Shown here: positions 16,102-61,400 of the stretch, piece by piece
Position numbering within the stretch: the first letter of the stretch is position 1
Layout: every line of letters starts with the position of its first letter
Assembly: GCA_030141605.1 (NCBI GenBank)
Contig: JAQGDQ010000114.1
Coordinates: forward strand, 62,001-126,000
Direction: 5' to 3'
DNA: 64,000 bases
From: Tubiluchus corallicola
Lineage: Eukaryota > Priapulida > Priapulimorpha > Priapulimorphida > Tubiluchidae
Program-made: the position numbers and the translations under genes
Notes under the pieces: model-generated
Databases searched by the model: none
The model's input: only the letters and a program-made list of their open reading frames with translations
Told to the model about the DNA's origin: nothing

Positions 16102-16965
16102 CTAAAGGTGCCATTTTTTTAGTTCATTAGGCAGACTGTTCCATAACAAAGCACCTTGATAAGATAGAGATTTGTTAATATTAAATCTTTGTACATAGAA
16201 AGTTTGGTCAATGGCAAATTGTGTATGATACTCGTGCATCTGGGCTAATGATTTATTGTAATTCTGAAAAATTTCAGGAAGCATGTTATGTTTAAATCCA
16301 TATAAAAATTTGGCCATCTCTAATTTGTATATGTCCTGACGTTTTAAGATTTTATGCTGTTGGTATAAAGGTGCAACATGACTCTTATATTTGTACTTGT
16401 CCAAAGCTTTACAAATTTATTTTGATTAGTAATTAGGGGATACAATGTGGAATGGGGTGCTGAGCCATAGGTAAGTATGCTGTATTCTATATATGGTGAA
16501 AATAGGGAAGAATATAGAAGTTTTTCGAATCATAATCCAGGAATTGCCTAATTTTTGAAAAAATACCTATAATTTTACTGGTTTTATTAACAATATATTG
16601 TTATGAGCTTTCCATGAAAGATTGTGATCTATTAATACTCCTAGATATTTTATTTGTTGTACAGATTGTATCCTGGTATTTCCCATTGTCAAATGTAATG
16701 TCAATTTTTTTACTTTTCTGGGATTACCAATCATCATATATTTAGTTTTGGAATAGTTTATAGAAAGCCGGTTGGCTCTCATCCATAGATCTACTTTAGC
16801 TAATTCAACATTAAGAAATTCTTCTAGGTGATTTACGTTAGTATCAGAACTGAAAAAGTTAGTATCATCAGCAAAAAATCAGCATTAGTATGTAATTGAG
16901 TACTTAAAGGGAGATCATTTATGTAGAGTAAGAAAAAAATACATTTCATTTTATTTAATTTTGAT
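16102..16965 (-). mobile_element. Non-LTR retrotransposon (LINE) 3' fragment
   Basis: Minus-strand translation gives the reverse transcriptase catalytic box FADDTNFF (near 16876-16853), then LWMRANRLSINYSKTKYMM, IKYLGVLIDHNLSWKAHN, and after a frame-disrupted stretch IYKLEMAKFLYGFKHNMLP and the typical end ALLWNSLPNELKKW (stop at about 16102). Domain order and spacing fit a Jockey/CR1-type element. The 5' part is missing and frames shift at least twice, so it is dead. Confidence 0.8.
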
Positions 16966-30900: not shown

Positions 30901-33900
30901 ACATCAACAGTATTTTGTATTTTGAAATGTAATTTGCTGAGATAGTGGAGCAAACAACTATAGCAGTGATAATTATTAGTAGTACTAGTAAAATTAACTT
31001 GCTAATTAAGTTTGTCACATTCATCTTACAATATTTAACCAATGAAACAATGTAACAGAACTTACCAAGACATGTCCGTCCAACTCCTCCAAAACAGCTA
31101 AAATAAAAATATGAATTAGCAAAGCTTTCTGATGAAAGACTAATCAAATCTAGTAATGGTTAACGTTCTAATTTGCATATTTTAAATAAATTTAAGAGCA
31201 TTTTTGCAAGTAGATGAGTAACCAGTACAACATTGTCTGCTGCTTTCACACATTAATTCGCTTAATGAACGTATTAAATTTATTTCATCATAAGCATTTG
31301 GTAAACGACAGATATAAAATGAAAATGTTTAACATTTAAAATGAAAACACAAAAAATAAAATAAGGTAAATTACAGCACATTATCACAGTTGTTCTTTTT
31401 ATACGAGCTAATTCGATACTATTTCATGCATGTAATTATTTACTAAAGTTACAAGTAAAATTTATTAAAATGCCTGGTCATTAGTTTCTGAGTAAGGCAA
31501 TTACTATCAGTGATCAAAATAAAAGTTTGAAATGGCACTTTTACACAAAATTTCACAGTGCTAACACAAAACAGCTTTACCATCACAAATAACTAAGTGC
31601 GACCAAATAGTTTTGCACCTGCGTGCATCTCTGCATAATATTTTCGTGTAAAAAAATTCTTTACACAAACAAATATAAAATGCTGATGCTACATACTGCA
31701 TAATAGTTTTCCGCCCATCCATTAAGCAAACTTGTAGTTCATCTAAAAGTTTAACACATCGATCCATAGAAGGAACACTCCCATCTGGGAATGGTATGTG
31801 ATGGACAGTAATACCAGCTTCTGCATAGCATTCTAAAAGATCAGGAACTCGATATTTCTTCAGTTCACCTCTTGTGCACAAAACGAAGGCTTCTTGTACA
31901 GCATCCATTTTCAATTTTCCTGCATTTATTGCATACAAAGCTAAGCTAAAATAATAATTTTTAAATGATACTGACATACATTTGTTAAGTTTGGTGTAGG
32001 CTTTTTTCACCTTTATATTATAGCATACATAATTTCTTCTAGAAAGTCTGAAATAGTTTAACTGCACCGACACTTACATTCTTTACTATAAATATAATAT
32101 TAAAAATATTTTATAACTAGCAAAGGCCCCGCAAAATATTTTGCGAATAAATACACTGATAATCAATAATACTCGAACATCCTACATAGTCCCCTCATTT
32201 ATAATGCAAATGTCAGCAGTGGCTTTTACTGAATTAAAGTTATAAAGTTATAGACAGAGTACAATGGAATGATGTCAGAACAATGAAAAACATCAGCAGT
32301 TTTCCAAGTGAGAATTGCCGGAAACGGAACCTCCAATTAACTCATCGCAGCTCCTTTTGGTAGAGGCATTTCAAAATGTAACCCACATCATCGTGTAGTC
32401 GTGTTCTTCCTCTTTCTAAAGAGTCATATATCTCCTTCCAAGAGTAACATCAGGCACCACTAGACTGGTTTTTCTACAGGCTGTTTGGCCAAAATTTTGA
32501 AATAATTGGTTGGTTTCGGGAAAACGCCCGTTATGGGACACCATGGCCCTCCCGTGAATTCTAAATATGCCTACTACACCCATCGTTTAATGGGGTATTT
32601 AACCATTACTAGCACCGTGCCAGGCACAGAAATAAGATGTATAAGTTTTGCGAAAAACAGCCGAAAATGGCCATTTTTGGAGGTTTTTCGCTCCCCGTTT
32701 GTCCAATAAAGGATTCGAAAAATAAATCCCAATGAAAAGACACTAGAACGAGACCTTTCTTTTGACATATAGGTCGCCGAAAATGGTGCCACCATTGAGC
32801 TGTAGCCTCGAGTCTTATATATATAGAGCATACCATGAAATTAATATTATACAATTAATAATTTTTGTTATTGTGATAAAAACATTACAAAATCATTTCT
32901 AACATTTCTTAATAATTATATATATATATATATATATATTAAGGTTATTACGTGGCAATGAGGTTATTACAAGTTGAGACTTATACTGAAATTAGTAATA
33001 GCTTGTAGAACTCAATAAATAAACTTCTAAAACCTAGAATGTCATGTATAGCTCACACAAAAGAATGGTAATGACATGGATTACAGCAAAACAGAGAGAA
33101 AGAAAGCACCCAGTCAGTACATCAATATCAATTAATAAAACAATTATTAACTTTCACCTAAGTATACTTGACTGAATAGCAAATTCTGGACTGTACACTG
33201 CAAAATTGCGGAGCAAACAAACTTTGTAAATGATTTATTTTACAAAAAAGGCACATTACTACAGTTTTATAGTTAAAAATAATTTTCAAGTTACCTATGT
33301 CTGCGGGAAGGCTTCTCCAAGTATCTTTAAACTTACAGCCTGGTAAAGCACACAGTCCAAGTTGCTCTTCACAACCCACTGATAGCAGATCTAACCTTTT
33401 GCACCCAAAATAAATATAAATAATTGAAAAAATAATTAACAAAGGTTATTACAAACTCAAAAAAATCTCCATGCTATAATGTTCAGAACACTGGCTCTAT
33501 TTAGAGAATTGTGATCCTAGAAATAAACAGTGGTTTTAGGGTAAGAAGCAAATGATTTAAATGACAAATGCTATACACTGAAATTAAAATAGGCAATGTG
33601 TAAAACAGTGTTGCTCCATAAACAATGCACATAAGCTTTCTTGAGTCAATCCGTAATTTTCAAAGGCTTTCAAAAGTAACGATCGGATACTCAAACTAGA
33701 TATCAATTTTTATCATTAAACTGACAACATGCCGCTGATTGAATTATCCTCAGATGTTGGCCAATCATAGGTAGCTGGTCAGAACATTTCAAACAACATA
33801 GATTCAAAGCAAAAACAAATGCAAAAATATGTTAAATACATAGAAGTTTGCTTAGTCTCTGTGCTGAAGCACAATAAATACAAAAGAGAAGATAAAAGAA

Positions 33901-38596: not shown

Positions 38597-39938
38597 AGAG
38601 AAAGGAGAGGCTAACGAAGCAAAGGGTGACAAGTAATCTAGCTTCAAGACCACAGTAAAGAGTTGCCTTATGTGAATTAATGTTCTAAAAACCGAAATGG
38701 GCGACAAGACTTAGGCACGTACGTATTGTCACTGGTCAGCTGTAATTTTACGCAGTAAAGCTTTTAATTTCTGAAAGTGCATGGTGCCTTTCAACCCCAA
38801 TTATGTTACAAAGAAAACTCAACCAAACTGAACACTGAAAAACTAGTCTGTGGTTACAGATTATACCACTAGTAATACTGTTATCTATGTCCGTTCACTG
38901 TCTCGGCGGTTTGGTTGCCAAGGAAGTTTGATAAAAAAAAACAGTGACGCGTATACAGAGTTTCCCATATTGCTCGTAACGAAATTTAGCAAGTATTTTT
39001 AAACTTTTTACAACCATGTTCACTGGAATTGTTATTTGTAATCGTAATACATTGCCTTATAAAAATAAATTGAATATCAGCATTATTTGCCACATTTACG
39101 GATGTTTTTGCTTTGCTTAAAGCCAGTTTTTATTTTATCAACAACTTTTTTTTACATAAATTGATGCCTTAAAACAGCACATATTGCATTATTCTGTTTT
39201 AAAATGCACTAGTAGTAGTAATGAAAACGCTATAGTTATTATACAAGTATATTTGTTTTTGCTTCCTGACTGATCACTAAATACGAGCCGGTTGTATCAA
39301 ATGAGACCTGGGAGCAAACTTTATGCCAAGGAATTTTGCCTGCAATCTGTTTTTATAGCAACCAGACTTAAGTCTCTAGATAAAATTCCCAAGGTCACAC
39401 CAGGGTTTGGCTTTGACTCTGCTGCAGTGTTTATTCTTAACTGCTGCCTAGAATCAAACGTCGACTAAAGAAAAATCACTAGCTAGGTAAGTAAGATATA
39501 TAGGTGGTTTCAAGCAAGCAGAAAAAAGTTAATCAGTAGAAACATGAGTAAAACTCATAAAATGTTTGATTTATATGATTTAAGCAGCACGTTGAAAAAG
39601 GTGCAGTTGCTGGAACTGTAGCCTCAAGTCAGATTATATCTTGTACGTAATATATAAATCCAGATACCAGCGGAATAAATGTTAGATTGTGTTTTTGCAA
39701 ACTCAACTGACTTTGCTCATCTGTTTGATGAAGTGGGCTTAGAAGCTCTGTTTAGTAAAGAGGGAAGCAGCTGCAGTGTAAATGGAAGCTGCCAGATGGC
39801 ACACAAATCAGAGTTGTCATGGTTGCATCCACTTGGCAGATCTAGGCAGATTTAAATTTTGTAAAAGCTCTACATTTATGCTTTCAAAAAATGAGCCCAC
39901 AAATGCCATGTGTATATTGGATACACAGTTTTAATATA
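38597..39938. other. Intergenic stretch, no gene seen
   Basis: Contains the tail-like sequence near 39613 shared with the repeat at 32110-32835. Nothing else recognised. Confidence 0.45.
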
Positions 39939-40340
39939 CAGTAAGCGCCGCTTTATAGACTCACTTTGGGACAGAAGCATTTTGACCCAATTAACCGACT
40001 GAACCTATTAACAAATGGGTGTTGTATTACTGGTATAGAAGTATGAGTCACCAGCTCACTATGCATTGCAAAGGTTTTTAATGAATTTTAGAAACAAAAT
40101 GTTGCCTAAATTGCTTTGTGCAGTTAAAAATTAGAAAAAATATTTTAAAATATTGATTTATATAAGTGAATTAGCAATAAATTAAAAAATATACTTTTCT
40201 AAATCACACAAGTCTGTTTATTTGCAAAAATTACAAAAATTCCTTCAAAGTCGGCTGCTTCATTTTATCGCGAAGAAGTTTGCTCACAAAGTTCTCAAAA
40301 TGATAAAAATTTTGAAAATCTATTGTTGTACGGTGCACAA
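39939..40340 (-). mobile_element. TIR element of the CAGTARGCGCC family, copy 3 (reverse, truncated)
   Basis: Starts CAGTAAGCGCCGCTTTATAG after TA, followed by GACTCACTTTGGGACAGAAG. The body is the reverse complement of the inside of the copy ending at 58699, including a stretch rich in AAAATT and AAGTCGGCTGCTTCATTTT. Similarity fades near 40340, where the GAT repeat region begins shortly after. Confidence 0.55.
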
Positions 40341-40775: not shown

Positions 40776-40992
40776 GGTGATATCATGTATTATCTAGAAG
40801 TATCATAGTACAATTCTGATGGAGTGTGGATGCAGCCCAGGTGTGCAAGTAATCTCTAGATGGTTTGAAAGCTGGAATTACAGACAGCAATGCCAGTTGC
40901 TGTGGAGCTTAATAGATAGGTAAGCTGTTTGGTTTGTTAAATCTATGGCAATTCATTAACATGCTGACATGTTTATGTTTCAAGCAAAAAAC

Positions 40993-41344
40993 AAGTGAAA
41001 TTTTACAATCTGCATACTATAGGCCTACCTCAAAGAAACTTGCCTTGAGTGTTTTTTTTTAGTACGTGCTACTTTTATTTTTAATTGATGCTTTCTCTTA
41101 ACAGGTAAGCTTGACAAGCTAAGGCTTTATAGACTAATCTGAATATAACACTAAAATGTATCAAGTATTATAAATCATTAATATATTATTCTGTATTCAT
41201 TGCTATTTTATGTAAAGATAAAACTTTTGAACTCTAATTATGTGACAGGATGAGTTGCTGAGCTCTGACTTATATATTGACTAAAGAAGTTTTGAGAATA
41301 AACGGGGTGATTTAGTCTTCGAAATGGAATTTAGAAATAGAAAA
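40993..41344 (+). repeat. Long inverted repeat, left arm
   Basis: About 350 bases, from AAGTGAAATTTTACAATCTG to GGAATTTAGAAATAG, matching the reverse complement of 43626-43972 with roughly 90% identity by eye and small gaps. The 2.3 kb between the arms holds two coding exons of the F-box/WD gene. Confidence 0.85.
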
Positions 41345-41908: not shown

Positions 41909-44480
41909 ATGTGACAGAAAAGAGTTGTTGGGAATTTTGGATGTTTTGAAAATTGTTACTTATCTTGGACGCACTGTTTATGGGAGAACTTTACTTGAGT
42001 TGCAGTCACCATGCAAAAATATTTTTTCAGGTATATTTTTACCTTTGTTGTTTTATTTTGATGTAATTATTGTAATCTGTTCTGTAATTTACAACTTTCA
42101 CAGTTTGCACGAAACAAATGACTGTCTCATTTTGCTGGATTTTTATCATGTTGTTTGCTTTCATTGCACAATAATGCTTAAAATGCTTAATGCTACTGTA
42201 CTTTTCATTAAAATCAGATATATGTATTTTTAAAGCACTTTTTAAAATCTAAAACCAGTTTTATGGGTATAAGATGCAACAGTTTGGTTGTTGATTTCTG
42301 AACAAGTTAGTGATGACATTCAGTCATTGGCGTACCAGTTTGAGCTTATATAGCTTTTCTTATTCCACCCAGTTATCAAAAGAACCACATTCTTACATAG
42401 TCTGTTAGATAAATTGAAAGTAAGAATATGCTGGGTGTTTCAGAAGTCACTAGCTATTTTGTTCAGTAACTGAGAATTTTTTTGAGCCTACATTTGAAGT
42501 TTATGCCTTTTTCTTCTGCTGCCATGCTGACTTTAGAACACAGGCGTAAAATCACTGTATGGCTTCATGACTACATAGAAAGGAGCACCTTGTAGGTGTA
42601 AAGCACTGCAGTAGATTTATAAAGGTAACCAAGCTAACTGAAGTTTTATGCCTCCTAAATTCTCATGAATGCGGTTTGCTCTGCATTATTAACACATCTC
42701 TGGAACAATAAAAGCTTCTATTGAAAGAACAAAGGTTTTTTGGCTTAAAGTGATTGCATGATTAACTTTGAAGAATTAACATTATATTGAATCATCCTTT
42801 ATAGTTCATCAGGTGTGGAACTGTGTGAAGCTTATATGATATGAACAGTAAAGGACACTATCATACAACAGTAGAATCTGTTTTTAAAATACGGAGTAAA
42901 TTTTTTACTAATGCAGTGGTGAATAGTTTAGTTTATTTGAAAAAACTTTTCAATTTCACTTACTATTTACTCAGAAACCTATTGTGTTTGTAAGTGTCTG
43001 AAAGTCTGAAATTTTCTCCTGGAAGGGTTATGCTTGCTATATTCACATTTTAGTCATACACAAAACATTCATAAATGCTGATGTAAGGTTACAAGACAAT
43101 TACACTATATTATTGAGATGATCAATTAAAGATTTCCGTTTGCTCGAGATGCTTAGTCTTTACTACATGTTTTTTTGCAGGAAAGTCGTTTAGTATGTTA
43201 CACGATATTGCAACAAGGAAACTAAGAGTCCAATTTCAAATGAGAAATGTGGGTAAATTCAGATTTTTGTTTAAGCTGTATTAAATTCCATTTCATATTG
43301 CAGAATTGTTGACTCTAGTAAATCGACTTGCCTTGAGTTGTGACTAAGTCCAATGATATTACCAATATGACTCAATATTTTAATTACTCTTTTAATTCCA
43401 ATGATTTTCCGTGGTTCAAACTATTAATTGCCAGTTATTGCCAAATGAGCTTTTTTAGAATGTAGACTTTGTGCAAGTGAAGTCTTAATAATTATGAATA
43501 AGAAACAAAAAAGAAATTCATCTTTAATCCTTAATTCATTGTTGAAATAGCGCTAGCCTACAGCATCAAAACACTGCGTAATTCATGTAGAATCTTGTGA
43601 GCTATTTGCTATGACTTTCTTTTCTTTATTTCTAAATTCCATTTAGAAGACTAAATCACCCTGCTTATTCTCTAAACTTCTTTGGTCAATATATAAGTCA
43701 GAGCTCGGGAATGCAGCCTGTCACATAATTAGACTTCAAAAGTTTTATCTTTACACAAAATAGCAATGAATACAGAATAATATATTAATGATTTATAGTA
43801 CTAGATATATTTTAGTGTTATATACAGATTGATCTGTAAAGCCTTAGTTTGTCAAGCTCATCTGTTTAGAGAAAGCACAAATTACATATAAAAAGTAGCA
43901 CGTACTAAAAAAATACTCAAGGCAATTTTCTTTGAGGTAGGCCTGTAGTATGCAGATTGTAAAATTTCACTTATTTTTAGAACTATTATACATTTATTTA
44001 GAACTATTAGATTTGCTTTTTGCATTTCATATTATCACTAGAATGGTTGATTAAATATCAAAGAAATACTTAATTAACAAGTTTAAGTCAAATTGGCAAC
44101 TTGAAACTTTTAAAGACTCCTCTTTAATAATACTTTCAGAACTCTCGACTTAAAACTAAAAGCTTGAAACTTACTTGTGACAAGTGGCTCAGTAACTTTG
44201 CATTGCTGCAGATTTGCGTACTTTAACTTCTAAAATGGAAGCTCAATTTTCTATGCTCTTTGGATTTCGGCATTTTTATTTATAGCCATTTGCATATTCT
44301 AATGTTGAATTATTAGCTACTAAAGATATTGACCATTATTAGGTACATATTTTTTATTTTTTTATAACAGAAATTATTTGCTGATCTGGCAGTTAAAGAC
44401 TGGGGATATCTTTTGTGCCATCTTCTACTTTTATGCAGCCGTGAGCAAATTGCTTGTTTGCTTTGCTATACACAAAGCAG
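41909..44480 (+). CDS. N-terminal helical exons of the F-box/WD protein
   Basis: Exons 41909-42030 (CDRKELLGILDVLKIVTYLG onward to NIFS), 43181-43248 (KSFSMLHDIATRKLRVQFQM to RN) and 44371-44480 (KLFADLAVKDWGYLLCHLLL to TQS). Phases run 2/1, 1/0 and 0/2. They are Leu-rich and look helical; I do not recognise a named domain. The middle exon has a competing donor, GTGG|GTAAAT, ending at 43252. It looks better as a site but puts the next exon out of frame. Confidence 0.6.
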
Positions 44481-46423
44481 GTATACTTAAACAATATTAA
44501 ACACTGTGTTGATTTTTAATCGTGATTCGTATATCACTACTATAATTATCATCTAGGTCATCATTGTCTTCATTATCATCATTGTCATCCTCATCATCGC
44601 ATCTTTTTTATGGGCAGTTAAAGAGGATTAAGATTCGAAAACTTTCATCTAGTTTTCAAGAAGTGAAATGTAAAATTAGTTCGCGGATCAGCTGACTTTA
44701 AAAGTGCATTGTGGAACGTTTTGTTTTTTTTTGTTTGATGTTTTGTCAAGGGCTTCTTGTCATTATGTAATATAAAAGGTGTTCACAACAGATAGTATAA
44801 AAAGTTCAGGTAAAATTTCACTTCTAGGATTGACAGACCTATCTGCATTGACGATGTCAGTGACAACATTCTCATGAAAATTTTCAAGTTTCTGCCTGAA
44901 GATGATTTGGAAATCGTTGCGCAAGTTAGTCCTAAGTGGCAACAACTTTGTTTGAATAACTGGAATTGGCTTCGAGTAAAACCTTTAAAATGGGGTATGC
45001 AATACTCATCACTAATATTATATTAAAACTTTGCAAATGCTAATTGTAAGCTGTGAAGAAATATTTTCTTTTTTATTTTCATTTCATTTAAGTCTATTGA
45101 GTAAACTATTAAGTAAATAGAATCTTTGTCACTGTTTGGTACACACTGCAGAAATGAACTATTGGAACTACATTTTGTTCCTTGCTAGTTTCATTCATCT
45201 AGGATCAAATATGTTACTTAAAAAGTTTGAGTAACATTTAGTTATAGACTTCTTTAAAAAGATCGTTGAAGCCTAGGCAAGATGTTTAGCCTTGTACATT
45301 TGTACGTATTGCTGCATGTCTTTCAGAACATCCTAAAAACATAAAAAAATTAAAGTTGAATTAAGTTTTTTTTGACAGCATTATAGATTTATGTAACAAA
45401 ATTGAAGTTTTAAACCAATTAACAGAAGCAGTTGCAGGTATTAGATCTTGGTGGTGCCATTACAAAAATGTCCTGTCAAATCATCACATAGCAAATGTTT
45501 ATGAGATCAAATTTTACAATTGCAAAAATCCATGCAAAAAAGTCTGTGCAAAAATCACAAACATTTAGTTAGACCAAATTTTCTAAATGTCAGTGACACT
45601 TAGAGGATACAGAAGATTGTTTCAAAATATTTAAATGCCTCTCTGTATTTGCTTCATGTTCCTATTATCTACTGGAAGCTTGTATGACATGTTCTAGTTT
45701 CATTCGTTCCAGGTTCTTTGATGCCGGCCTTTTTTGATAATGTGAAGTAAAGCTTTTATTCTTTCAGCTGGCTTAGAGGAGGAGCTTGAAGATGGTTTGC
45801 TTCCTCCTGAGCTGTCACATTGGTACAAGAAAATAGAACAAAGCTTGCCATGGCTTCGTCCAGGTAAAAGTATTGTAATATGGATTGATGGAAAATTTTT
45901 TTGCAAAATATATTATAAAGTTTTTACTAAATGTCCAAATTTGCAGCATTATTACTAATGTGGCAGAGGTGCTTTTAGCTTATATAAGTGGCAAATCATT
46001 TATCTATCGAATATTTTGTATTTCAAAATACACCAATAAGTATTAAAGCAGACTTAGCTTCTATTAGAATGCTGTTTTTTGGTCATTTGATAGTCACTGT
46101 AGAAGAAGAGGTTGATGAATATGGCAATCGATACATCAAATTTGGTAAGGGCAGGTCTGCTGATCATGTAACAAGCCGTTTTGGAACAGGTAAACAAAAT
46201 ACAAATGCAGTGTTAACAGGTGTTTGTAGAGTAGACTACGTTCTACGGACTTTAAGTTCTATTTTGTTAAGAACAATTGCGCATTTTACTTTTGTCTGAC
46301 TTTCATTTTAGAAAAATGTGCAGTGTATGCAATTCAGCCATATCAATTGGGATTAACAAAACTGATGAATGCTTTTTATTTGAGAGTCCTAAACATAGCA
46401 TGCATTAAGTAAAATTAACATTC

Positions 46424-46458
<35 letters not shown>

Positions 46459-49400
46459 TGTATGTATGTATGTATGTATGTATGTATGTATGTATGTATG
46501 TATGTATGTATGTATGTATGTAGCCAATAACATTACTATGTGTGGCCTCCTCCAAAACAATAGTGTGTACCAAAGATCTTAAAATTTTGTGGCTACTGAT
46601 TACAGTTTCTTTAGTGATTTTGTAATCTATTACTCATCTGATACTAATGTACAAAAGGCGAATTTTCTGGCAGATACATTAATCATTTAGTAATAAGTTA
46701 CTGAACAGAGTAATCAATACATAACAGTAATCAGTTAGTAATCAGGTGTGTTGCTTTTACTATAACTACAACTATTTGCATGACTGCTCTCAAACCAAAA
46801 TATGTCATTAGAATCTTATAATTCATTTTTACTTCACAGTTTGTATGCTTGAGTTGTTTTAGATTTTGAAACTTTTTGTAAACTATTGCTTCCATTTCAC
46901 AAACATAGCTGGAGAAGAGGTTGATGAGTACGGTAGGCCTTTTCAACTGTTACGACGTGACAAAGATGTTGCAGAAGTGTTTGATGAACACGGAAGACCT
47001 ATTCGTCAGTTAAGACTTGACAAAGGTGCCCTAGAAGTGGTTGATAAACATGGCGTTGTTATACGTTCGCAATTTCGTAGAACTGAATTTGAAAAGGGAG
47101 ATGAATATGATATTCACCGTCCACGATTTGGCAGACGTAGAACTAAGAAAACTCCTGAGCGTGATGGAGGTGAATTTGCTTTTACTGCTATATATTTTGA
47201 TGTATGTTACATTAGAATATCTGGTTTCAGACAGAATTGTATTTGTACAGTAGGCGCCATTTATTAGACTCATGGTTAATAGAATCAGTTGCCTAATTGA
47301 CTCAAAAACGTCTGGTACGGGCTTCTATATATTCAAATATATATACAAATTGTCGGTAATTGACTCAACTAACTCTGCATAATTGACTCAATATTTTTCC
47401 TTCTCAATTTGTACTTAAAATAAGACACTTGTGTGGGTGCCCAAAGAGCTTTTACTGCTTTTATGTTACCTTTGCGTAGATTTTGTGTTCTATAATATAC
47501 GTAGAAATAGTTATGTTAGGTATAGCTTTGCTTGCAAATAGGGTACGTTTATCATATTCACTAATATGTTAGCGTAGCGGTTTTGCGTTGAATCTGCCAC
47601 CTGCTTATCCAGTGCAGTTAGCCTCGTTGTTTCTGGAAGCTAAGCATTTAATCGCTTGCTGGTATACTTTTGAAGTTGCCGCTGCTTTTCACAGGGAGAA
47701 CAAGGTCTTCACCAGCTCAAGCGCTAGGTGACTAGGTGTTTTGCATGAACGTGTGCAGTATATAGCAACAAATTTTCAACATTTTTATCATTATGAGAAT
47801 CTCATTAACTAACTTCTTTTTGAAGAAATGAAGCAACCGACCTTGTGTGAATTTTTGCAATTTGTAGTGGTAATAATCAGATCTGTGCTTTTTTATTAAT
47901 TCACTTATATAAATTAGTATTCTTAAATAGTTGCACATAGGAATTTTGACATTAATTTGTTTCTAAAATTCATTCAGAACCTTTGCAATGCCTGCTAAGG
48001 TGATGTGTGATGGTTCATACTCCTGTACTAGAATGGGCTAGACCTGTTGGCCAATTGAATCAGTCGGTTAATTGGGTCAAAACACTTCCATCCCAAAGTG
48101 AGTCTCTTAAGTGGTACCTACTTTATATATTCTGCGTGGAACAAAATTAAATCTAGGTTTTTTGCAGTTATCTGTTCTGTACATTAAAGATGTTAAATGC
48201 TATGCACCTCTTGCTAATATTGTTATAATAAATAAACAGAAACACTAGAAAGCCTTATTTGAGTTGTTATAGTGACTTTATTTCAGAAAGACCTCAACTT
48301 TGCAACTCTGCTGTTTTGGTTAGTTGCCAAATCAATTAATAAAACAAGTAGTGACAAGGCAAAGCTAAGTTAATAGTTTTCTTGACACCTTTAAAGGAAT
48401 TAAAGGCAGATTGCAAATTACTTTTTAAGTACTGTCCTTTTTGTATGTGCAATCAACACTGATGTTTTCAAGATTCCCGAACACTTTCTACTTTGTTTCT
48501 GTTTTTGATCAATAGCCTATTAATCGATTTCATCAATAGTCTAAGCTTATTGTCTATGTTGAGTATACTACTCTGTATAGTACTTACTGCCATGTCACAC
48601 TTGTTAACTCCGGACTAGAAGCATCTCAGATTTTTGGAAAGGATCTTGAATTAACTTTGAACTAGTGTCGAGTCTGACTTATTTATTGTGAATAAAATAG
48701 AAGGTTGTGCCATTCCCCTGATAACGTAAAACTATGTTGTCTACTTTAATATGGACATTTTTCTTTTTCTAATTAGTTTCTTGTTCACTTGTTTTGCCTT
48801 GAGTCTCAGTCTTAGATGAGAGCAATATATTATAGAAGTGTCCAAGAATGTGTCGAAAAAGTGAGATGCCTGTATCGTACTCAAAATTATCTACCTCTTG
48901 AAGCTATAGTATATTTTTACAAGTCAATCTTTCAATCTTCTGTGGGACACTTCAGCCATGGGCTGGTGCTGTACCTTGTAATATCAACCCATTTTAAAAA
49001 TTACAGAACCATGTAGTCAGTTGGTCTGGGTTCAGCCCTGCAGTCACTGAAGGTCAGGTGCTACATTGCAGATACTCTCATGATCTCTCGTTGTTAGTTA
49101 CTAAATGGCGATAGTATTTCAGCAGCATTTGTTTTTCTGTTGCTTTTTGTAGTTTCACACTGGACACCCCTAGATGCGAACTGGCTGCTGTGGAATTCTC
49201 AACCAAAAATTTCAGCTTTGGGCAATTCAAGAATAATATTAACAGATGCCTCCTATCACTATTAGCAAATTAGTTGTAAAAATTTTTGTTCTCTGGACAT
49301 GTACTTTTCTTCTTTATCATCTATATCATCACCTTGTTTCTGTAGCCCTTAACCCTGTGTCATCATTGGTCTTGTTTTGGGTGGCTTGTATATGTCATAT

Positions 49401-52400
49401 ATGAACAAACATGATATTATGTAATTATAGTTATATGGTAGTAGAAATAGCAGATATTTTTGTACGTCTGGAGATTTAGATAATGCACTTTATTGTAGAA
49501 GCTTAATTTTACAAATTAAATGCTTAAAAAACTGAAATAATTTTATTGATCTTGGTTACACACTGCATGAAATTGAATAAACGTAATTAATTTATTTTTT
49601 GAATTTTAATAGAAGAAGGTGATATAAAGAAAAAGTGGAGTATTGGCTGCATTGAAGCTTATGCTAACTTGCTGTTACCACCTTCGCCTGTAGGTAAGCA
49701 AAGTTACTCCATTAATAACAGCTGTATGAGGTTCTCTGTGTATTATAGCTTGAACTGTAAACCTCTTGATATAGCCTAAAATAACTTATTGTATAATGAT
49801 AAAAAATGATTATAATGATTGTATAATGATAAATATAGAAGTTTGCTCATGATACGATTTATAACAATAGTGTAATTATTATTGTGGCAAGGTAAATTGT
49901 TTCATTTTTTGTATTTATATTTTTATTTCTATCCATTTGACAATTATATGCCTAAGCAGGTTAACAAAGTCACTTTTTAACAAGCCTAATAAAGAACCAC
50001 ATTAAAATAGGATACCAGTTATAGCATAAGGATTATGTTACTGATAAATATTTTTATTGAATAATCACTTAAATAGCGATTTTCGTATGTTAAACTGAAT
50101 TTACACATACCACGATACATATCTACCACAAGTGCAATACTGCAGTATATTTGTTGTCATACGAGTCAGTCCTAATTTTACTTAGAGCTCATGTCATCTG
50201 TGTAGCCCTTTTCTATTTGCATCAGCAGGGAAATAAGCATTTTGTTTAAAAGTAAGAAATGCACAGACTCGTCTACAGACATAGACGAGACAAACTTGAT
50301 TGGAGAATTCAAAATATAGTAGTTTGAATCATACTTTGAAAACTTTGTCTTGAGCATTTCAAGTAATGGAGATGCTGTGATATTTTTAAATTATGTTGAC
50401 TGTTGCTTAAAAAGCACTGACTTTCATCATTTAATATAACTAACATTTTTTAGAGTTGGGTGAGCCAGAAGAAGCAGAAAAAGAAGGAAAATTACAAGTG
50501 AGGAAACATGCAAAATCGAAACAATCAATTGGTGCGTCAGTTAGTACTGAGGAAGAGTTGATTGAAAAAGGCAAGGCTGCAGCACTACGCCGAAAACAGA
50601 GAAAGGAGACCGTAGAGCAACTGATCATTGATCCTGGTCATCTGGCAAGATTTACTCGTACTGACAGGTAAAGGAGATTGTCAGCTTTAAAATTAAATTT
50701 CAAGACTTCCCAGATTAGTGTAAGACCACAGATTACAAGACAGTGTAACAACGGATTTGTATAACACATGATTGCTGTTGTAACTGAGTGCGCACTCTGT
50801 TCTGGTTACCTTTGGCAAGTTGTCTATAATGTTGCATTTGTTGGCGGGTGGTAGCTACTTGGCATTCATATTACCCTGGGCACATCCAGCTGCCATGGCT
50901 GAGAGGAAGAAATAATGTAAACCTATCTGTTAAGAAAAAGCTGAAGTTTCTCGTGAAATTGTTCAGTGTGAATCATCCGTAGGAACAGCATGTGAAGAAT
51001 ATGGAGTCGAGAAGATAACAACACTAGAGCCAGGCATACGGAAATCTAAAGAAAGAAGCTTGTGTTAAGATACTTTGCTGAGCCTGCACTTATGAAAACA
51101 TATGCAAGTGGCTAAGAAAGCTGAAAGATAAAAATTTTGAAGAACCCGTATAACTGGTTTTTTTCAGGAGCAGTCCGATATTATACTTGTTCATGGAACC
51201 GGAATTTAGAATGCTACAAATATCCAAACTAGCTTAGTAAATGGATATATAAAACCTTGTGCATGTGATGAACAGCCTCTGTAGCAATTATAATTGTCAT
51301 GGAATTGGTAATATTAGACTTTATGAAGCTGATAGTACACCAGTGGAAGAACTGAAGTCCTACAGACAAAAGTAAATTAAACATAAAAATGAAGACTGCA
51401 ACTGTTGTTACCCTTGTGTAAGGTGCCGAGGAGACTTTGCTGTTTTAACTTTCAATATATGCTGATGGAAATAAAGAAATGACACTTGGCTATATAAGTT
51501 GAATAAGGAAAAAATTTCAAAATTGCATATGCTGGTAGATGCGTAAACTGAAGTTGGTGATCATGGGGAAATCAGCATCTAAGAGACATTGTGAGGTAAC
51601 TCACATCACAGTGTTATTACTGTAAGCTGTAAGAAAATAGGAGGAAGATGTAAAGTTCAACATAGTCTAGACAATGCTCCTGCACATCCCAGTGCTAGCA
51701 ACTTTACAAGTCATGGTGATAAGAAAGGGTGTGTTTGGCCACCTTAATGTAACATCAGTGGGCATGCCACTGGATCAAGGTGTCTTCACTTCCTGCAAGA
51801 TATTGTAATACAGATGTTATTTGGGTGTTATTCACTGTTTTGCTCAACGTAATCTGAAAACGATTAAAAAACAGGAATTGCATATATAGTATTTTGATGC
51901 ACTGCTATCCTTTTTTAGGGCAAGGAGACATCTGCGGAAACAAGAGGAACGTCAGAGATCATTTAGAGAAGCAGATGAGTTAGCAACTGAAGTCAGACCA
52001 TTGCCTGTTCAAACAAAAAACCTGCTGGTGGGCTCATTATGAATACAAAAGCCAATTATGTACCATGTTACCAAGTTTACAAGTATTGATGTTGGTTGGT
52101 CGGGCTGGTTGAGTAAATAATTTTATTGCATTTCATGTTGCAAAGATGGATTTTCCAAGAATGTTGTGTTATACAAATCGCATGTTGAAGGTGAAATTTC
52201 CCATATGGAGACTGGACAATCTTAGAATACCTGTTCTTGTTCTGATTTTGTTTAAAAAAAGTGATTTAATCTGTATACTATAAAATAGTATAAGAATTTG
52301 ATTAAAACAACACTGCTTCTTAGGTTAATTCACTTTATCATATGTAAAGAAGTGTTTTTAATGCTGTTACATCTTTTAACTTTCTGCATTCAATAAAGGA

Positions 52401-55400
52401 ATACTGTGCATCATATCAAAAACCTTTTTTGTTTTTATTTAGGACCAAAGTAGCTCTTCTGTCTTGATAACAAGCTCCATGGCTGGGAAGGCAATGCGCA
52501 ACTCAATGTTTGGCGATGTAAAGGCTGTAAAACGACTTCGCAAAATTGTGGTATGCTTTCAGTTAGACATTTTAGTTGTCCTAGGAATAATTTACTATGT
52601 CTATGTACCTAGACGAAGTGCGGTGGCAGAGGTTAGTGTATTGGCTACTGAAGTTAAGATGTTGCAGAGGCTAGTCAGTGAGTGGTTGGATCGATTCTCA
52701 CTCTGGAAAGTTTCATTTGCCATACTCATTTTGGCTGTTCACTTTGTAGAGGGAGGATGTGTTCACAATCGAATGTAGGTTAGACACTTCTGCTGGTTTA
52801 CTGGCTCATTTTAGAGGCATTGCGTTGATAATGAGTCAGGTCAATCTCACCACCACTATCTAATTTGAGTAGGACAGAATACTGGTTTTGGCTGCCAGGA
52901 TTCCAAATTGTATTTAAAAGTACCTAGGGAGACTTTATAAGTTGTGCCCACTTGAATTTGGAATTAAAGAAGCATAAGATAAGAATCAAGATGTTTTTAG
53001 GTCTTTTCATTTTGTTGTTTCTTAGCAGTTGATACTGCCTGTGTCATCGCTGTCCTTAATTCCTCCTACATTTTAGGGCCATTCAAAGTAGATACCAGTA
53101 ATTAGTACAACAAAGTGCAACATGTAATTTAGAATTCATTTGATTGCCACTAAGGTCTTTTAGTGAGTTGTACTTGCTTATTTTTGGAATTTGGTATTGT
53201 TCAGCCACACAATAACAGGTATAAATATGTGGTTATTGTTTATATATAATGCATACAAATTTAGAAAATCCTTCAAGTGTATACATGAATTCAGGTCCAT
53301 GATTCAAAGATATATTATTAATTTCGTTCAGAGTAAATATAAATATAAAAAAAAAATCACATATAATGCTTTGTATGTTTTCAGTGCACCTTTTTGTATT
53401 TTTTAGTAATGTTCAAAGGCAGGTTTCAAGGGGGTCACTTGAGGCAATCATGCACCTTAACTTACAAAGAAAAATAAAAAATTGCAAAAAATGAAAGCAG
53501 AAATAAAAAAATGAAGGAAAAGATGAAGGCTAGTCAAACTTCATCGGTTTAAAATATGGGTGAGAAATTCCATGGGAGAAGAGTGACTAACTGGTTCAAC
53601 CCTGATGAATATTCATAGGGACATTCATTTGAATGTCAGTGACATTATTACTCGATTTGCCATGAAAAACTCTATGTGTTATGTAAACAAATCATCCATT
53701 TTATTTTTTTATTTAGTTTTTCTTTTTATGTTCATTTATTTACCTTGAAAATGCTTACTTTGATGCATGTACTGGCTCAGTATCACAATGGTGAGATGTA
53801 GGTCACTCTAAACCAGACCAGAATGTTGGAGAAATTTGTGTCAATAAAATCATGTTTTTATCAACATGTGCTATCATTTTACTTTTTATTCTAAGAATAT
53901 GAGTATATATAATCTGTAAAAGATTTAGCGCCACATCACCCCCACCCTAACTTTTAACTCTGGAGCCGCCCCTGGTAACATTTGGTCTTCTTGAAAGGAT
54001 TGCCGTTTCTTTACTTTTATCTGTTAGTATATTCAAAATATGATGCTTTCTTTAGTTATGTTCCCCATCTTTCTTGGGTTACCTTTTTATTGTTTGTGAT
54101 ATTCAAAATTCAATTGGACGATAATACCATCTTCTTAGCTAAAATACTTTAAATCTTTTTAACAAAAGTTGTTTATTAGTTACAAATGGCAAACTGATGT
54201 GTGATTTTGACCTAAGTAACCAGTCAGCAGTCAGAGGTGTCATACTTCTGTAGAACAATGATAAAATTGAAACCGTCTGACTATATTTATAACTCTGTGT
54301 GTGTGCTCATAAGTTTTGGACTTTTCATCAAAAAGTGTGTTCAGTTAATATGCTAGTATGAAGCATTTTTAGTTCTTCATAGACTGTTATATGGAGGTAT
54401 GTTTTTTATCAAACTGTACAACATATTTTATGATTTTCCGACAATATAATTTGTCTGCTTTTTAAGTGGTGTAATGCGACGATAATTATTTATTTGCTGC
54501 AAAATCAGCTGCTTTTGGTTTAAGTTAAATGATTGTACTTTTATGCTGTGTTAATTCTGCAATGTTGAACTTATTGACCAATTACACTGCAAACAACATG
54601 TTTCAACATGGTTAAGGAGATGTTTAATGTCGAAAAGTCTGAAAAAGAATTCTAGATTACATAATTGTATAGTTTAAGAATTGGCTTGTTCTGTTGTAGG
54701 ATCATGCAGACAGTGTCATGTGCATGCAATTCGATAGGCTTAGAATCATCACTGGAGGTTTGGATGGTGTGCTAAAAATATGTGACATTAGAAGTGGTGC
54801 CCGCATTGCAGAGCTTTTTGGACATCTGGTCAGTAGTTATAAACATTGTTAAACGTTTTAAAATGTTTTTCTTGTAATCTTTGACTTTAGGCTTTGACTT
54901 TTTGACATAAACTTGATTTTTCCATGTTTATTTTAGGGTTCATTTTTAATGAAAGCTTTTATGAACTATTTAAATTGGCTTTAAGTTAAATAGCTTGGAA
55001 AAATGATTTACAATGCTTAAAATTTAAACCATTTTATACATATAATTGGCATATAATGATTAATTTTCATTGTATTTTTAGGGCGGAATTCATTGTTTGC
55101 AGTTTCAGGCTAACATAATGTTTAGTGGATCGTGGGACAGAAATATTATCGTAAGTCTTTTGCTCGGCAAAGTAAAATTAGTGTCTCGGAGTTCTTAATA
55201 TCCTAGAGCAAAACTAACCAACAGCCATCTCTTACTATAAAAATTTTTTCCCAGATGTGTATAGTGAAACCCTTTTGGTGCTTCCAGTACTGGCAGCATG
55301 CAAAATTTTTACAAGTATCGTGACTACAACATTGAATTACTAGTTTAGATGCTGCTAGAGTGAGTGCTCTTGACACATTTTACTTGCCAATAGGCACAGT

Positions 55401-58400
55401 TTTGTCAGTTTTTATAAGATAATTGTAAGCTTATACTGTGTGGTATAAATAATAACATATTGTAAGGTATTAATAAATGTAACTGAAATTTAACATCACA
55501 AAACGTGTCTATGGTTCTATAATAATTGGTGCAATACTTAATTAATTTTTTCTAAAATATACTTTTATCCACATTGTGTGGATTAATTTTGTTCGATATT
55601 GGTTTTTTCCGATCGAATCTGATATGTTTTACTTAAGGTATAGACTCGACATGATTTGATATTGCACAAAAATTTCGTGATATAGTACTTTTTGTTACCA
55701 AGGTTAAACACTTTAATCTCGCTTTAACAATTGAGATTAATGTTTCATTTAACTGAAATGATGAACATACTTAACCTCATTTTGATTTTCAACTATTTAA
55801 TGTACATTTTACATTCAGACTGAATTTACTGAGAAATTTTGATAATATGAATTCAACCTTATAAACTTTAAATTGGTAACATCAATACATGAAAAACAAA
55901 AAGGTTTGCATTAGTGCTTTAGCAAAATTAAAACAGTCTGTCAAGAAACTAGTGTGAATTATTAACAACGTGTGACATGTTCCTTCACCAAGAGTTGATA
56001 GCACGGTCAGAATCAGTATCAGGTCTAACAAGGGACAATTAAATTTCATCCCTATTAGCTTTAGGGGAGAATCAGAGATCAGTTGTATAACCGAAAATTT
56101 AAACAATCAAATTGGTCATGTATGTTTGACAATCGCACATAACTTGCTATGAATTCCCAAGTAGCTATTTGTTGGTCAAATGTAGCCTGTATCTGCACTG
56201 TTACTCGTCAGTGGCTAGACAGGTTTGAGTGTGTGTGGTTCAACAGGGAGAGCGCGGCAAGTTAGGTTCTCCTGAAGTTAATAATATGTTATAGGCTACT
56301 GTAGTAGAATATGTCATGTGGCTGTACTGTCTGATTCCCTGGTCAAGCTCCATTTGCATGCTAGCCCAGCAAAGTAGACAGACTGATTATTTAGAAACTT
56401 CTTACATTACACCCGAATTAGTTAAATCATTACTGCTTTGCGTAAGACATGAGTATGGATGTATGAACTTTGCCTTTTTTGAAGGTTTGAAAGTTCAAGC
56501 CAAGTAAAAGTAGACCGATGTTTAAGTTGCCAGTTGTTATGTTGGGAAATGTCAGAATTTTGCTAAATATTGGGTATCGGACAATGCTAGTTTGAATATG
56601 CACAGGTGTAGTCAGATTATGCACTGAATCTGGCACATTTCTTTTATTAGGCATACTTGATTTATAATTTTAGGCATGGGATATAGTGAAGTTTGAACCG
56701 ATTGCTGTCCTTCCTGGGCACTGTGGATCAGTGACGTGTTTAAAGTTTAACAACGAATACCTGTGAGCTTTACATTAATTTTTTGTGTTAAATAGTTTCA
56801 CTTTTCATTTGCATTCAAACAATTATTTTTGCTATGTTAGCTCGTATGTGCAAGCATATTCTAAAATGGTTTAATTAGTTTAATGAAACTGTTTTTACAT
56901 GGAAAAAAGCTCATCTTGTTTTCTGATAGTAAGTTTGATGTTCTTTGCTTTGAGTGTGTAATGTGCTCTTTTGGCATTGCAGAACATCTGGTTCAGAAGA
57001 TGCAACAGTTAGGTTATGGTCTATGAATGATTACAGTCTTGTAAGAGTTATAAATTTCGACAGTGAAGCAGTTAGTTGCATGACACTGCAAGATAGTTTC
57101 CTGATATGTGGATCCGACGATAAGTATGTTACTTGATTATGTTATTTAATGTCTGAAATGCATGTCTAAGAAACTTGGACAGATAAGAAATGAATGTACA
57201 GCAAACCCACGTTATAATGGACCTCGGATATAACAGACTTTTTTGCTTGTGCGGATACATTTTTTACTACCAGCCAAGTCCTCTATAATGAAGCCAACAT
57301 CCAGATCGCAGGCTTAGGTCAGCATGTACAGCACATCCCAGTATTAACAACAAGATAATAAGAAAAGAAACACGTACATAATATTGACTATGAAACACGA
57401 ACCAGAGTAGAATGTGGCCACCTTCAGTTTTGAATCACAACAGCTTTAATACTCGTGATGCGTTTTTCATACGTGTACAAGTACGTTTTATTTAAATAAA
57501 CATACATTTTAGGATATTTTACCCATTTGCCTGTGTAAAGTGATAGGTTAAAATACATGGCCTAGGTCCCATAAAACAATTGCAGCTGCTAGAGTAAGAA
57601 GTGCTAGTAATTAAATGAAGTAAGCTTTTCCATTATCTTTTTCATTTTTTATATTAAATATAAAATTCTGCCAAATTTACATGCTCTTCACCAAACTTAA
57701 AACAAAGTCAGGCCAGCAATTTATTCTATCTTCACCAAACTTAAAACAAAGTCAGGCCAGCAATTTATTCTTCATCGCATTGTCATTTGTTCTAGCCTAC
57801 CATTAGGTTATCAGGTTGAAAGACTACTAATCAGTTAGTTTAACACTTCAATTTCAGGATTAAATAGACATGAATGCATACATTAGTTGTACTAGTATAT
57901 GAAAATACATGGCGAAGGCCTATTTCGCATCTTATCTCAGAAGCTGAAGTTCCACGCTAGTTTAGTGCTTTATGTCATCTTTACTTCCCTTTTGTGCACT
58001 ATGTATGCAGAAACAATCATGTTAAGTACCGTTTTGTTTATAAACATGGTTTAAAAGCGGTTTTGCTTTGAATCTGTTACCCAAAGAATTTCTGGAAGCT
58101 AAACATTTAATCACTTGCCTAGCAGTTTCCTTTTGGTGCTCTCATTGCAAATCACGCTTTCGAGCTTAGTGAGATAACAGTCAAAGATGCAGGTACAGTA
58201 ATCAGCCGGTATTCCTTGTGACTTACAAGAGTGAACACCGTACAGCAAATAAGGGCAGTATAAGTGAGCAGACGATTCAGAACTAGTTTAGTCACACACA
58301 ACAACAGATTTTCAACATTTTTATAATTACGAGAACTTTGTGGGCCAATTTCTTCGCGAGAAAATGAAGCAGCCAACTTTGAAGGAATTTTTGTAATTTT

Positions 58401-61400
58401 TGCAAATAAACGGACTTAGAAAAGTCTGTGATTTAGAAAAGTATACTTTTTAATTTATTGCTAATTCACTTATATAAATTAATATTTTCAAAATATTTCT
58501 TTTCTAATTTTTAACTGCACAAAGGAATTTAGGCATTACTTTGTTCCTAAAATTCATTAAAAGCCTTTGCAGTGCATAGTAAGCTGATGACTCATGCTTC
58601 TATACCTGTAATACTACACCCATCGTTTAATAGGTTCAGTTGGTTAATTGGGTCAAAATACGTCAGTCCCAAAGTGAGTCTATTAAGCGGTGCCTACTGT
58701 ATATCCATATATATGGGAAAAACTCAAAAATCACATAAAAAAATTGGCAGTTCTTGGATATGTGACATTTAGTGATAGAAAAGTTAAAGACGATGTGATA
58801 GAAGCTTTGCTGTAAAACAGAAAGTTTTGAAAGAAAAAATTCACTTACGTTAAAATTTAGCAAAAACTATTTTAAGAAGAAACATATGGAAATTCTCAAG
58901 CAAATTCATGAAAAGCTAAAACAAACAGAAGAAAAAAGGCGATTAATTTCGCAGAAGAAATTGAGCAGCAAACAAAAAATGATTTTTCTAGGCATTTTAA
59001 AACAAGAAGGACTTTGCAGAACTTTCAACCAAAGAAAAAGCTGATTGTAGAAGGAATTGAAGGTCTAATTACTGTAGCTAAGCATCAAACTGAAGCCATA
59101 GCAGAATTTTTTCAAAAGATGTTTAATCATGAAAATGCAGCTGGGTTAAAAGGACTGATCACTATCCAATGAAAGTTGCATTTACTAAAGAAGAAGTAAA
59201 GCATGCAGCAAAACCACTGGAAAACACCAAAAGCTCAGCCACAGATGAATTAAATACTGAGTTAGTTTCGTAGTTTGGATCACATACTTTATATGCAGAA
59301 ATTGCTGAAATTCTTGCATAATACAGTAAGCCCTCACTTAAGAAAGCTAATGCATTCCAGCAAAACAGGTCGTTAAAGGAAACAATACCTTCCGTAGAAA
59401 ACAATGTAAAAGCATTCAGTTGCTTTCTCTACTGAAAGATCAATAATATTGGTCTGCGTAAGAGCACTCACTAGGCTGCCATGCAGGACAAAAATCAATA
59501 ATATCTGATTACGTAAAACTCTCAGTACCTTGCTTGACTGAAATTAATAATGCTTGGCTCATATATCAAACACTCTACGACGTTTGTTGCTGACAATTTT
59601 TAACTAAAAGTTAAAACAGAGCTAAAGTTTGCAGTGAAAATTCAAATTTGAAATATAGACTCTTTCTTGCATAGACATATCTTTCTCTGATTGATCTCCT
59701 TGTGCCACTTCTTCCTCTTCCTCAATCTAGCATTGGTTGCATCGACTCTTTTTTCATCTAAAACTTCTTTTCGGCACTGCAAAGCATTAGCAACATCTTG
59801 TCCCATCTCTTAATTTCACTCTATATGAATTATTTTCACAAAAAATCAAGTCTAGCACCAGAACTGTATTTTATGCAGGTGCTGTATGTAGATGTTTAAC
59901 CCTAGCCACTTCTGATTAACGTACCTGAGAACTTTTCTCGTGTTGTTCTTCCGGTAGGGTAAATGCAAATGATGTGAAGGCAGCAATAACTAACCCATTA
60001 ATGTAACATGAGAGATTTTTATCAGATGAATTTGAACTCCAAGCATGTAGGAAAGCGCTGTACTAGTTAAGGGGTTGTTAGCAATGAATCATTGCAGCGA
60101 GCATCTGACTTCATAATAGGGCAAATTATTACCGTGATTTCTGTTAATAAGATGAGTGCAGTAAACAAAATTTCAGTGCTTGAAGGCTGAAAAAATCGTC
60201 GTTCATTCGAAGGCATGAAAGGTGTCAAAATGTAAAACCAAACGTCGTTAAATGGGGAGTCGTTAAGCAAGGACTTACTATATCCCAAAACAGGTACCCC
60301 TCAAGATATTCAGAAAGGAATGCTTATCCCTTTATCCAAGCCAGGAAAAGGTGTGAGCCTATAGAAATTCTTAGACCATTGAAGTTACTTCAAATGGAAA
60401 TTTTAAGGAATTAAGGAAAATTTTGGCCATCTGCATGTTGACTAGATCTATGACAGATTACACACTTACACTCCAACAAGCCAAGCAGCGTCAGTACGTA
60501 GGACGGAGTACTACAGAATTAGTTCAAACCTGTAAGTTACTTGCTGAAAAAGCCATCTCTTCTTTTGATTACTCAATATATATACTCATCATCGATATGT
60601 CAAATACCTTTGATTCTGTTCGGAGAAAAACTCTTCGGGGACAAACTTCGTTGTCTAGAAGAAATCCTTAAGCCTGATGAAATACACGTCATAAGTATAT
60701 AATGTTAGAAAATTTGTTAATTCAAGTCAGGTGTGAATGGAAGTTGAGTCAGCCATTTTCAACAAACAAAGGAGTAGTTCAGGATGACTGCTTAAGCCTT
60801 ATACTTTTCTCTTTATATCTTGCCATAGCTCTCACTAAGGATAAAGTTATGTCATTGAAAGACCTAGAAGATCACAACTATACGATTCTTGATCCTAGGT
60901 TAATACCAATATTACAGAATTGGCGAAATTACAAAATAATTTTGGATATCAGTGGGCGAAAGAAAATCTCAAAAAAAGATCTGCATGGAAAAATAAAAGA
61001 ACCTTGCACTAGAAAAATAAAAAGGCGTCCGGTAAGACGGATTGGACATATGCTTGAGCTACCTGTTGATAATCCAGTGAAGATAACTTTTCAACAAGCT
61101 GCAGGAGGAAAATGTTAACATTTTCAGATTTTGCACAGAAAGAGTTAAACACTTCAGCACTGATTCTTACAGAAAAAATTTAACCCACTTGGGACATTGC
61201 AGTGAGTAGGAGTCCTGGCATAAGATGGTGAACAGAATCATGTCCCTGGACATATACTTTATTGGATGATAATCATACTTAGGCTTCCTTGGATTGCATT
61301 GTATTACATAAAGACTAAAAGTACTTCCTTTCTTAATTTTTGCTTTTTCTCTCTGTTTGTTCACTTTAAATTAATATTCTTGCATCTAGAAGGATAAGTT

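Follow-up and report, generated by a model that had tools for sequence, protein, structure and literature searches.

A small tandem duplication in the charged linker of a predicted F-box/WD40 gene of Tubiluchus corallicola

The window, that is, the whole stretch of DNA analyzed here, covers 64,000 nucleotides of contig JAQGDQ010000114.1 of Tubiluchus corallicola. Open frames and splice signals on its plus strand predict a eukaryotic F-box/WD40 gene of 19 coding exons and 784 codons (41909-63963; Table 1), which extends to the stop codon at 63963 and lacks the 5′ end of the gene. The intron phases of all 19 exons join in frame, with no internal stop. The low-scoring donor of exon 2 at 43248 (score 2.4) was preferred to 43252 in order to preserve the phase, so this exon is no test of the phase chain. 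The exons upstream of the F-box exon (41909-44480) contain no Pfam domain, and the F-box in exon 4 is the sole Pfam match of the N-terminal region. It passes the cut-offs of both F-box-like (28.3 bits; cut-off, 24.3) and F-box (26.7 bits; cut-off, 20.5). When the N-terminal 187 residues were compared with PDB sequences, the only match at E ≤ 1 was a weak one to the F-box protein FBXL5 (E = 0.065). Pfam WD40 matches the last eight exons in seven stretches (116.7 bits), C-terminal to the F-box in the predicted exon chain. The F-box/WD40 context recognized in the original prediction therefore holds, as both domains are above the Pfam cut-offs.

Table 1. Features of the window (positions are those of the window).
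Feature	Position	Strand	Basis or remark
Exons 1-3, upstream coding exons	41909-42030, 43181-43248, 44371-44480	+	Open exons with splice signals
Exon 4, F-box	44828-44994	+	Pfam F-box-like, F-box
Exon 5, linker exon, phase 1-1	45768-45863	+	No repeat unit
Exon 6, phase 1-1	46094-46189	+	One decayed unit starting EEVDEYG; alternative start 46103
Exon 7, phase 1-1	46909-47169	+	Tandem units; low acceptor score
Repeat unit 1, EEVDEYGRPFQLLRRDKDVA	46914-46973	+	
Repeat unit 2, EVFDEHGRPIRQLRLDKGAL	46974-47033	+	
Repeat unit 3	47034-47066	+	Recognizable part EVVDKHGVVIR
Further linker exons	49613-49693 (phase 1-1), 50454-50667, 51919-52027, 52443-52550	+	
WD40 propeller exons, first to fourth of eight	54700-54828, 55082-55150, 56674-56762, 56983-57123	+	Pfam WD40
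WD40 propeller exons, fifth to eighth of eight	61724-61811, 62669-62820, 63211-63298, 63796-63963 (stop codon)	+	Pfam WD40
Inverted repeat arms	40987-41344, 43622-43978		
Interspersed repeat, three copies	39934-40329, 47766-48128, 58298-58704		Both orientations
(TATG)n microsatellite	46425-46522		
Reverse transcriptase fragment	16570-16878	-	RVT_1, under cut-off
Open frame, CDKN3-like domain	31564-32073	-	Pfam CDKN3
Open frame, intron before 61724	60375-60668	+	PrnB, under cut-off

Several other elements are found in the same DNA. The two most upstream exons predicted are flanked by inverted repeat arms, of which 272 nt are 89% complementary at a spacing of 2277 nt and an additional 72 nt are 94% complementary; this arrangement is possibly a foldback element. 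The three copies of an interspersed repeat are 76-95% alike in pieces, and two of them lie within introns of the F-box/WD40 gene. The (TATG)n microsatellite in the intron that separates exon 6 from exon 7 comprises 24.5 copies and is likely variable in length. The minus-strand open frame with a CDKN3-like domain (79.3 bits, E = 3.5e-22) is probably an exon of a different gene. The reverse transcriptase fragment is LINE-type-like and its match to RVT_1 (E = 5.8e-6) is under the cut-off (26.6 bits; cut-off, 29.6). The match of the plus-strand open frame to PrnB (E = 0.0022, 17.3 bits; cut-off, 27) is probably due to chance, and by eye this frame looks like a retroelement remnant. The 64-kb window yielded no tRNA gene and no Rfam match at the gathering score.

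The order of an F-box followed by a C-terminal WD40 propeller is likewise that of FBXW7 and FBXW1A/beta-TrCP, and the propeller of this gene matches PDB chains of both proteins (E = 2.3e-42 and 3.8e-39, respectively). Ten PDB sequences matched at E ≤ 1e-38, namely three of FBXW7, three of FBXW1A, one of FBXW11, and three of Tako8/Ika8. The Tako8 and Ika8 chains, which are designed proteins, ranked ahead of the FBXW chains, and for this reason no subfamily can be assigned from the propeller by itself. Opposite the residues taken as the phosphodegron-binding arginines of FBXW7, the phmmer alignments with the FBXW7 chain 2ovp_B place T, E, and M, in a repeat register that is ambiguous. The segment ahead of the propeller differs in length between this gene and the FBXW7 chain. 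In 2ovp_B, the propeller match starts at residue 105 of 445 and leaves at most 104 residues ahead of it, whereas in this gene the F-box match extends to residue 149 and the propeller begins at residue 464 (match) or 478 (exon), which gives a linker of about 315-330 residues. The region ahead of the F-box may resemble that of FBXW10/CDRT1. FBXW10 is tabulated with 1052 residues in PMC9795248. From the predicted anatomy, the gene is best read as an ordinary SCF-type substrate receptor of the FBXW type.

Two phase-1 exons had been proposed between the F-box exon and the WD40 exons, the second of them ending at 47169. Both were borne out as exons 6 and 7, and the gene prediction places the end of exon 7 at the same nucleotide. 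The symmetry of the exon phases was also recovered, and it extends over exons 5, 6, 7, and 8, all of which are 1-1. Exon 6 keeps its frame with either of the two possible starts, and 46103, the start given in the original prediction, scores scarcely better than 46094 in the acceptor matrix (-0.3 versus -0.8). Exons 6 and 7 are charged, with 25 D/E and 26 K/R among their 119 residues; the further linker exons within 49613-52550 are charged as well and have no Pfam family above the cut-off.

Exon 7 contains a genuine 60-bp tandem duplication, which is smaller than first described and partly decayed. Tandem Repeats Finder assigned 46913-47050 a period of 60 nt, with 2.3 copies and 75% matches. 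When the exon 7 protein was aligned with itself, the best score, 81, was obtained at a lag of 20 residues, and this score was reached by none of 2000 shuffles (maximum, 44; 51 once exon 6 or exons 5-8 were included). Units 1 and 2 are identical at 10 of 20 residues and 43 of 60 bases. Unit 3 is recognizable across 11 residues, 7 of which are identical to unit 2, at a score reached by 7 of 1500 shuffles. The decayed copy in exon 6 consists of one matching stretch of 27 residues, chiefly EEVDEYG (1 of 1500 shuffles). A proposed fourth tandem unit, the segment following unit 3, was rejected as being at chance level (932 of 1500 shuffles), and exons 5 and 8 contain no unit above chance (1240 and 1244 of 1500 shuffles, respectively). 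A tblastn search of the 64-kb window with exon 6, units 1-3, and exon 7 found no convincing further copy among the matches listed. The four or so copies of a ~20-residue unit in the original prediction are thus reduced to two complete units and a partial one in tandem, with a further, decayed unit in the adjoining exon. The D-E-x-G-R-P motif ascribed to them is present in two units only, and the others read DEYGNR and DKHGVV. At the DNA level, a direct repeat of 41 nt (73% identical) pairs 46084-46124 with 46893-46933 and takes in the 3′ ends of the introns preceding exons 6 and 7.

Here, we favor, with some reserve, the reading that the units are a spacer or a weak docking segment in the long linker of an SCF-type receptor. 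The F-box would bind Skp1/Cul1, and the seven-repeat C-terminal WD40 propeller would bind the substrate. A 60-bp stretch of one linker exon has been duplicated in tandem, with a decayed copy in the preceding exon. Most probably, the duplicated charged units make the linker longer or stiffer or act as a weak docking segment, and the distance between the substrate and the E2 would be tuned as a result.

The repeat had been described as unfamiliar, and no known family was recovered for it in the libraries searched. The repeat region (residues 157-333) matched no Pfam family at E ≤ 10, a null that is limited by the HMMER filters, which discard most matches above E ~0.1, and exons 6 and 7 matched no NCBIfam or PHROGs family at E ≤ 10. 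Among PDB sequences, the repeat exons found four chains at E ≤ 10 with no convincing alignment, and a profile of the four units found five chains (best E = 0.64). The best of the four chains found with the repeat exons, a SUMO2 chain (E = 0.03), is marginal and was rejected as spurious-looking because the independent E-value of its best stretch is 4.7. These searches speak against any clear hit to a curated repeat family, but they are no proof of novelty because eukaryotic proteins were covered by the PDB alone. Pattern matches to the exon 7 protein numbered 39 in viral contigs and 160 in prokaryotic genome contigs, but tblastn confirmed none of them, and none of the 383 pattern matches of linker exon 9 in prokaryotic genome contigs was confirmed. 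Since these collections are viral and prokaryotic, the failed searches for relatives weigh little for a eukaryotic gene. For the F-box exon, there were eight pattern matches in viral contigs, one of which was confirmed over 21 residues at 43% identity (IMG/VR, L001, 2114-2176). The strings DEYGRP, DEHGRP, and VDEYGR did not occur in a literature search, and a linker repeat was absent from the titles and abstract openings of the matches listed on FBXW10, F-box/WD40 evolution, and tandem repeats.

The units may instead represent an unnamed structural or interaction repeat, made of small β-hairpins. Such a repeat would recruit a partner or substrate, and its copy number would be set by alternative splicing of the phase 1-1 exons. 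We consider this unlikely. AlphaFold prediction of exon 7 alone from the single sequence placed strands of at least three residues at 13-17, 20-24, 30-37, 40-44, and 50-52 and none beyond residue 52. These strands keep step with the 20-residue period, but the confidence of the model is low (mean pLDDT, 46.9; pTM, 0.28), and it is at best a hint at hairpins in the units. The empty family searches and the marginal PDB matches are also as an unnamed repeat would have them. Set against this, there are just two full units, no relatives were found in the viral and prokaryotic contigs, and a charged linker stretch with DExG turns could originate by chance and then duplicate. In the first 11 codons, the synonymous distance exceeds the nonsynonymous distance in the three pairs of units 1-3 (0.95/0.24, 0.79/0.30, and 1.46/0.58); this stretch was picked post hoc from the alignment and offers no more than 6.5-7.5 synonymous sites in each pair. 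When 20 codons are compared, the two distances lie closer together (0.59/0.30 for units 1 and 2, 0.90/0.80 for units 2 and 3, and 1.09/0.76 for units 1 and 3). The distances weakly hint that the codons of the units may be under a constraint exceeding the needs of a passive spacer. With about two and a half units and a decayed copy, a low-confidence model, and no relative, the claim of a new interaction or structural module in the original prediction was not supported.

The splice sites bear on the supposed adjustment of the copy number. As had been expected from the symmetric phases, all eight skip combinations tried among the phase 1-1 exons leave the frame open. Exons 6 and 7 have the lowest acceptor scores of the 19 exons (-1.2 and -2.6; next lowest, 2.7) in a leave-one-out matrix of this gene, which also suits exons that can be skipped. 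Their donors, however, are not weak, that of exon 6 being the best of 18 (10.5) and that of exon 7 average (6.7), and the pyrimidine fraction ahead of both exons (0.65) is ordinary (range for the 19 exons, 0.53-0.88). Exons 6 and 7 may be skipped, and because of the low acceptor scores their inclusion is a prediction only. The pattern of the splice sites would fit regulated inclusion, and it would fit an exon boundary that is unsettled or misplaced just as well.

The boundary of exon 7 itself may be unsettled, with a strong acceptor at 46863 competing with the weak one at 46909, either as an expression switch or as a mere decoy; we regard this as decidedly improbable. In a matrix of the 17 other acceptors of this gene, the acceptor-like AG at 46863, 46 nt upstream of exon 7, scores 11.8, and the acceptor at 46909 scores -2.2. 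With the exon starts of the model left aside, 41500-64000 contains 1343 AGs, and two of these score as high as 46863, which is itself one of the two. Joining exon 6 to 46863 shifts the frame and leads to a stop codon after 20 residues; its use would halt translation, and the segment could in this way act as an expression switch. On the other hand, the matrix is small (17 sites from one gene), and with 46909 exon 7 is in phase with both neighboring exons.

A reading that joins these elements, in which the DExGRP units would be an undescribed β-hairpin repeat serving as a second, splice-adjustable docking arm of an SCF receptor, with exons 5-8 omissible in any combination on account of their phases and 46863 switching expression off, is in our estimation very improbable. 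As judged by eye, RHS/YD and other hairpin repeats share with the units a pattern of strand, DxxG turn, and strand. It is hardly credible that the units belong to a described family, for example RHS/YD-type hairpins, as a divergent branch overlooked by the single-sequence and small-profile searches: two Rhs core-domain chains appeared among the PDB matches, but their E-values of 0.94 and 0.95 led to their rejection, the units have no Pfam match at E ≤ 10, and neither the SUMO2 chain nor the unit profile led to a described family.

The linkers of ubiquitin-ligase receptors of the F-box/WD40 class are usually regarded as spacers, and a spacer or weak docking segment is also the role that we prefer for the units. 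Should the units turn out to be conserved and folded, this class of receptors would gain an adjustable arm from them. On present evidence, they represent a small linker duplication, an event of a common kind in eukaryotic genes.
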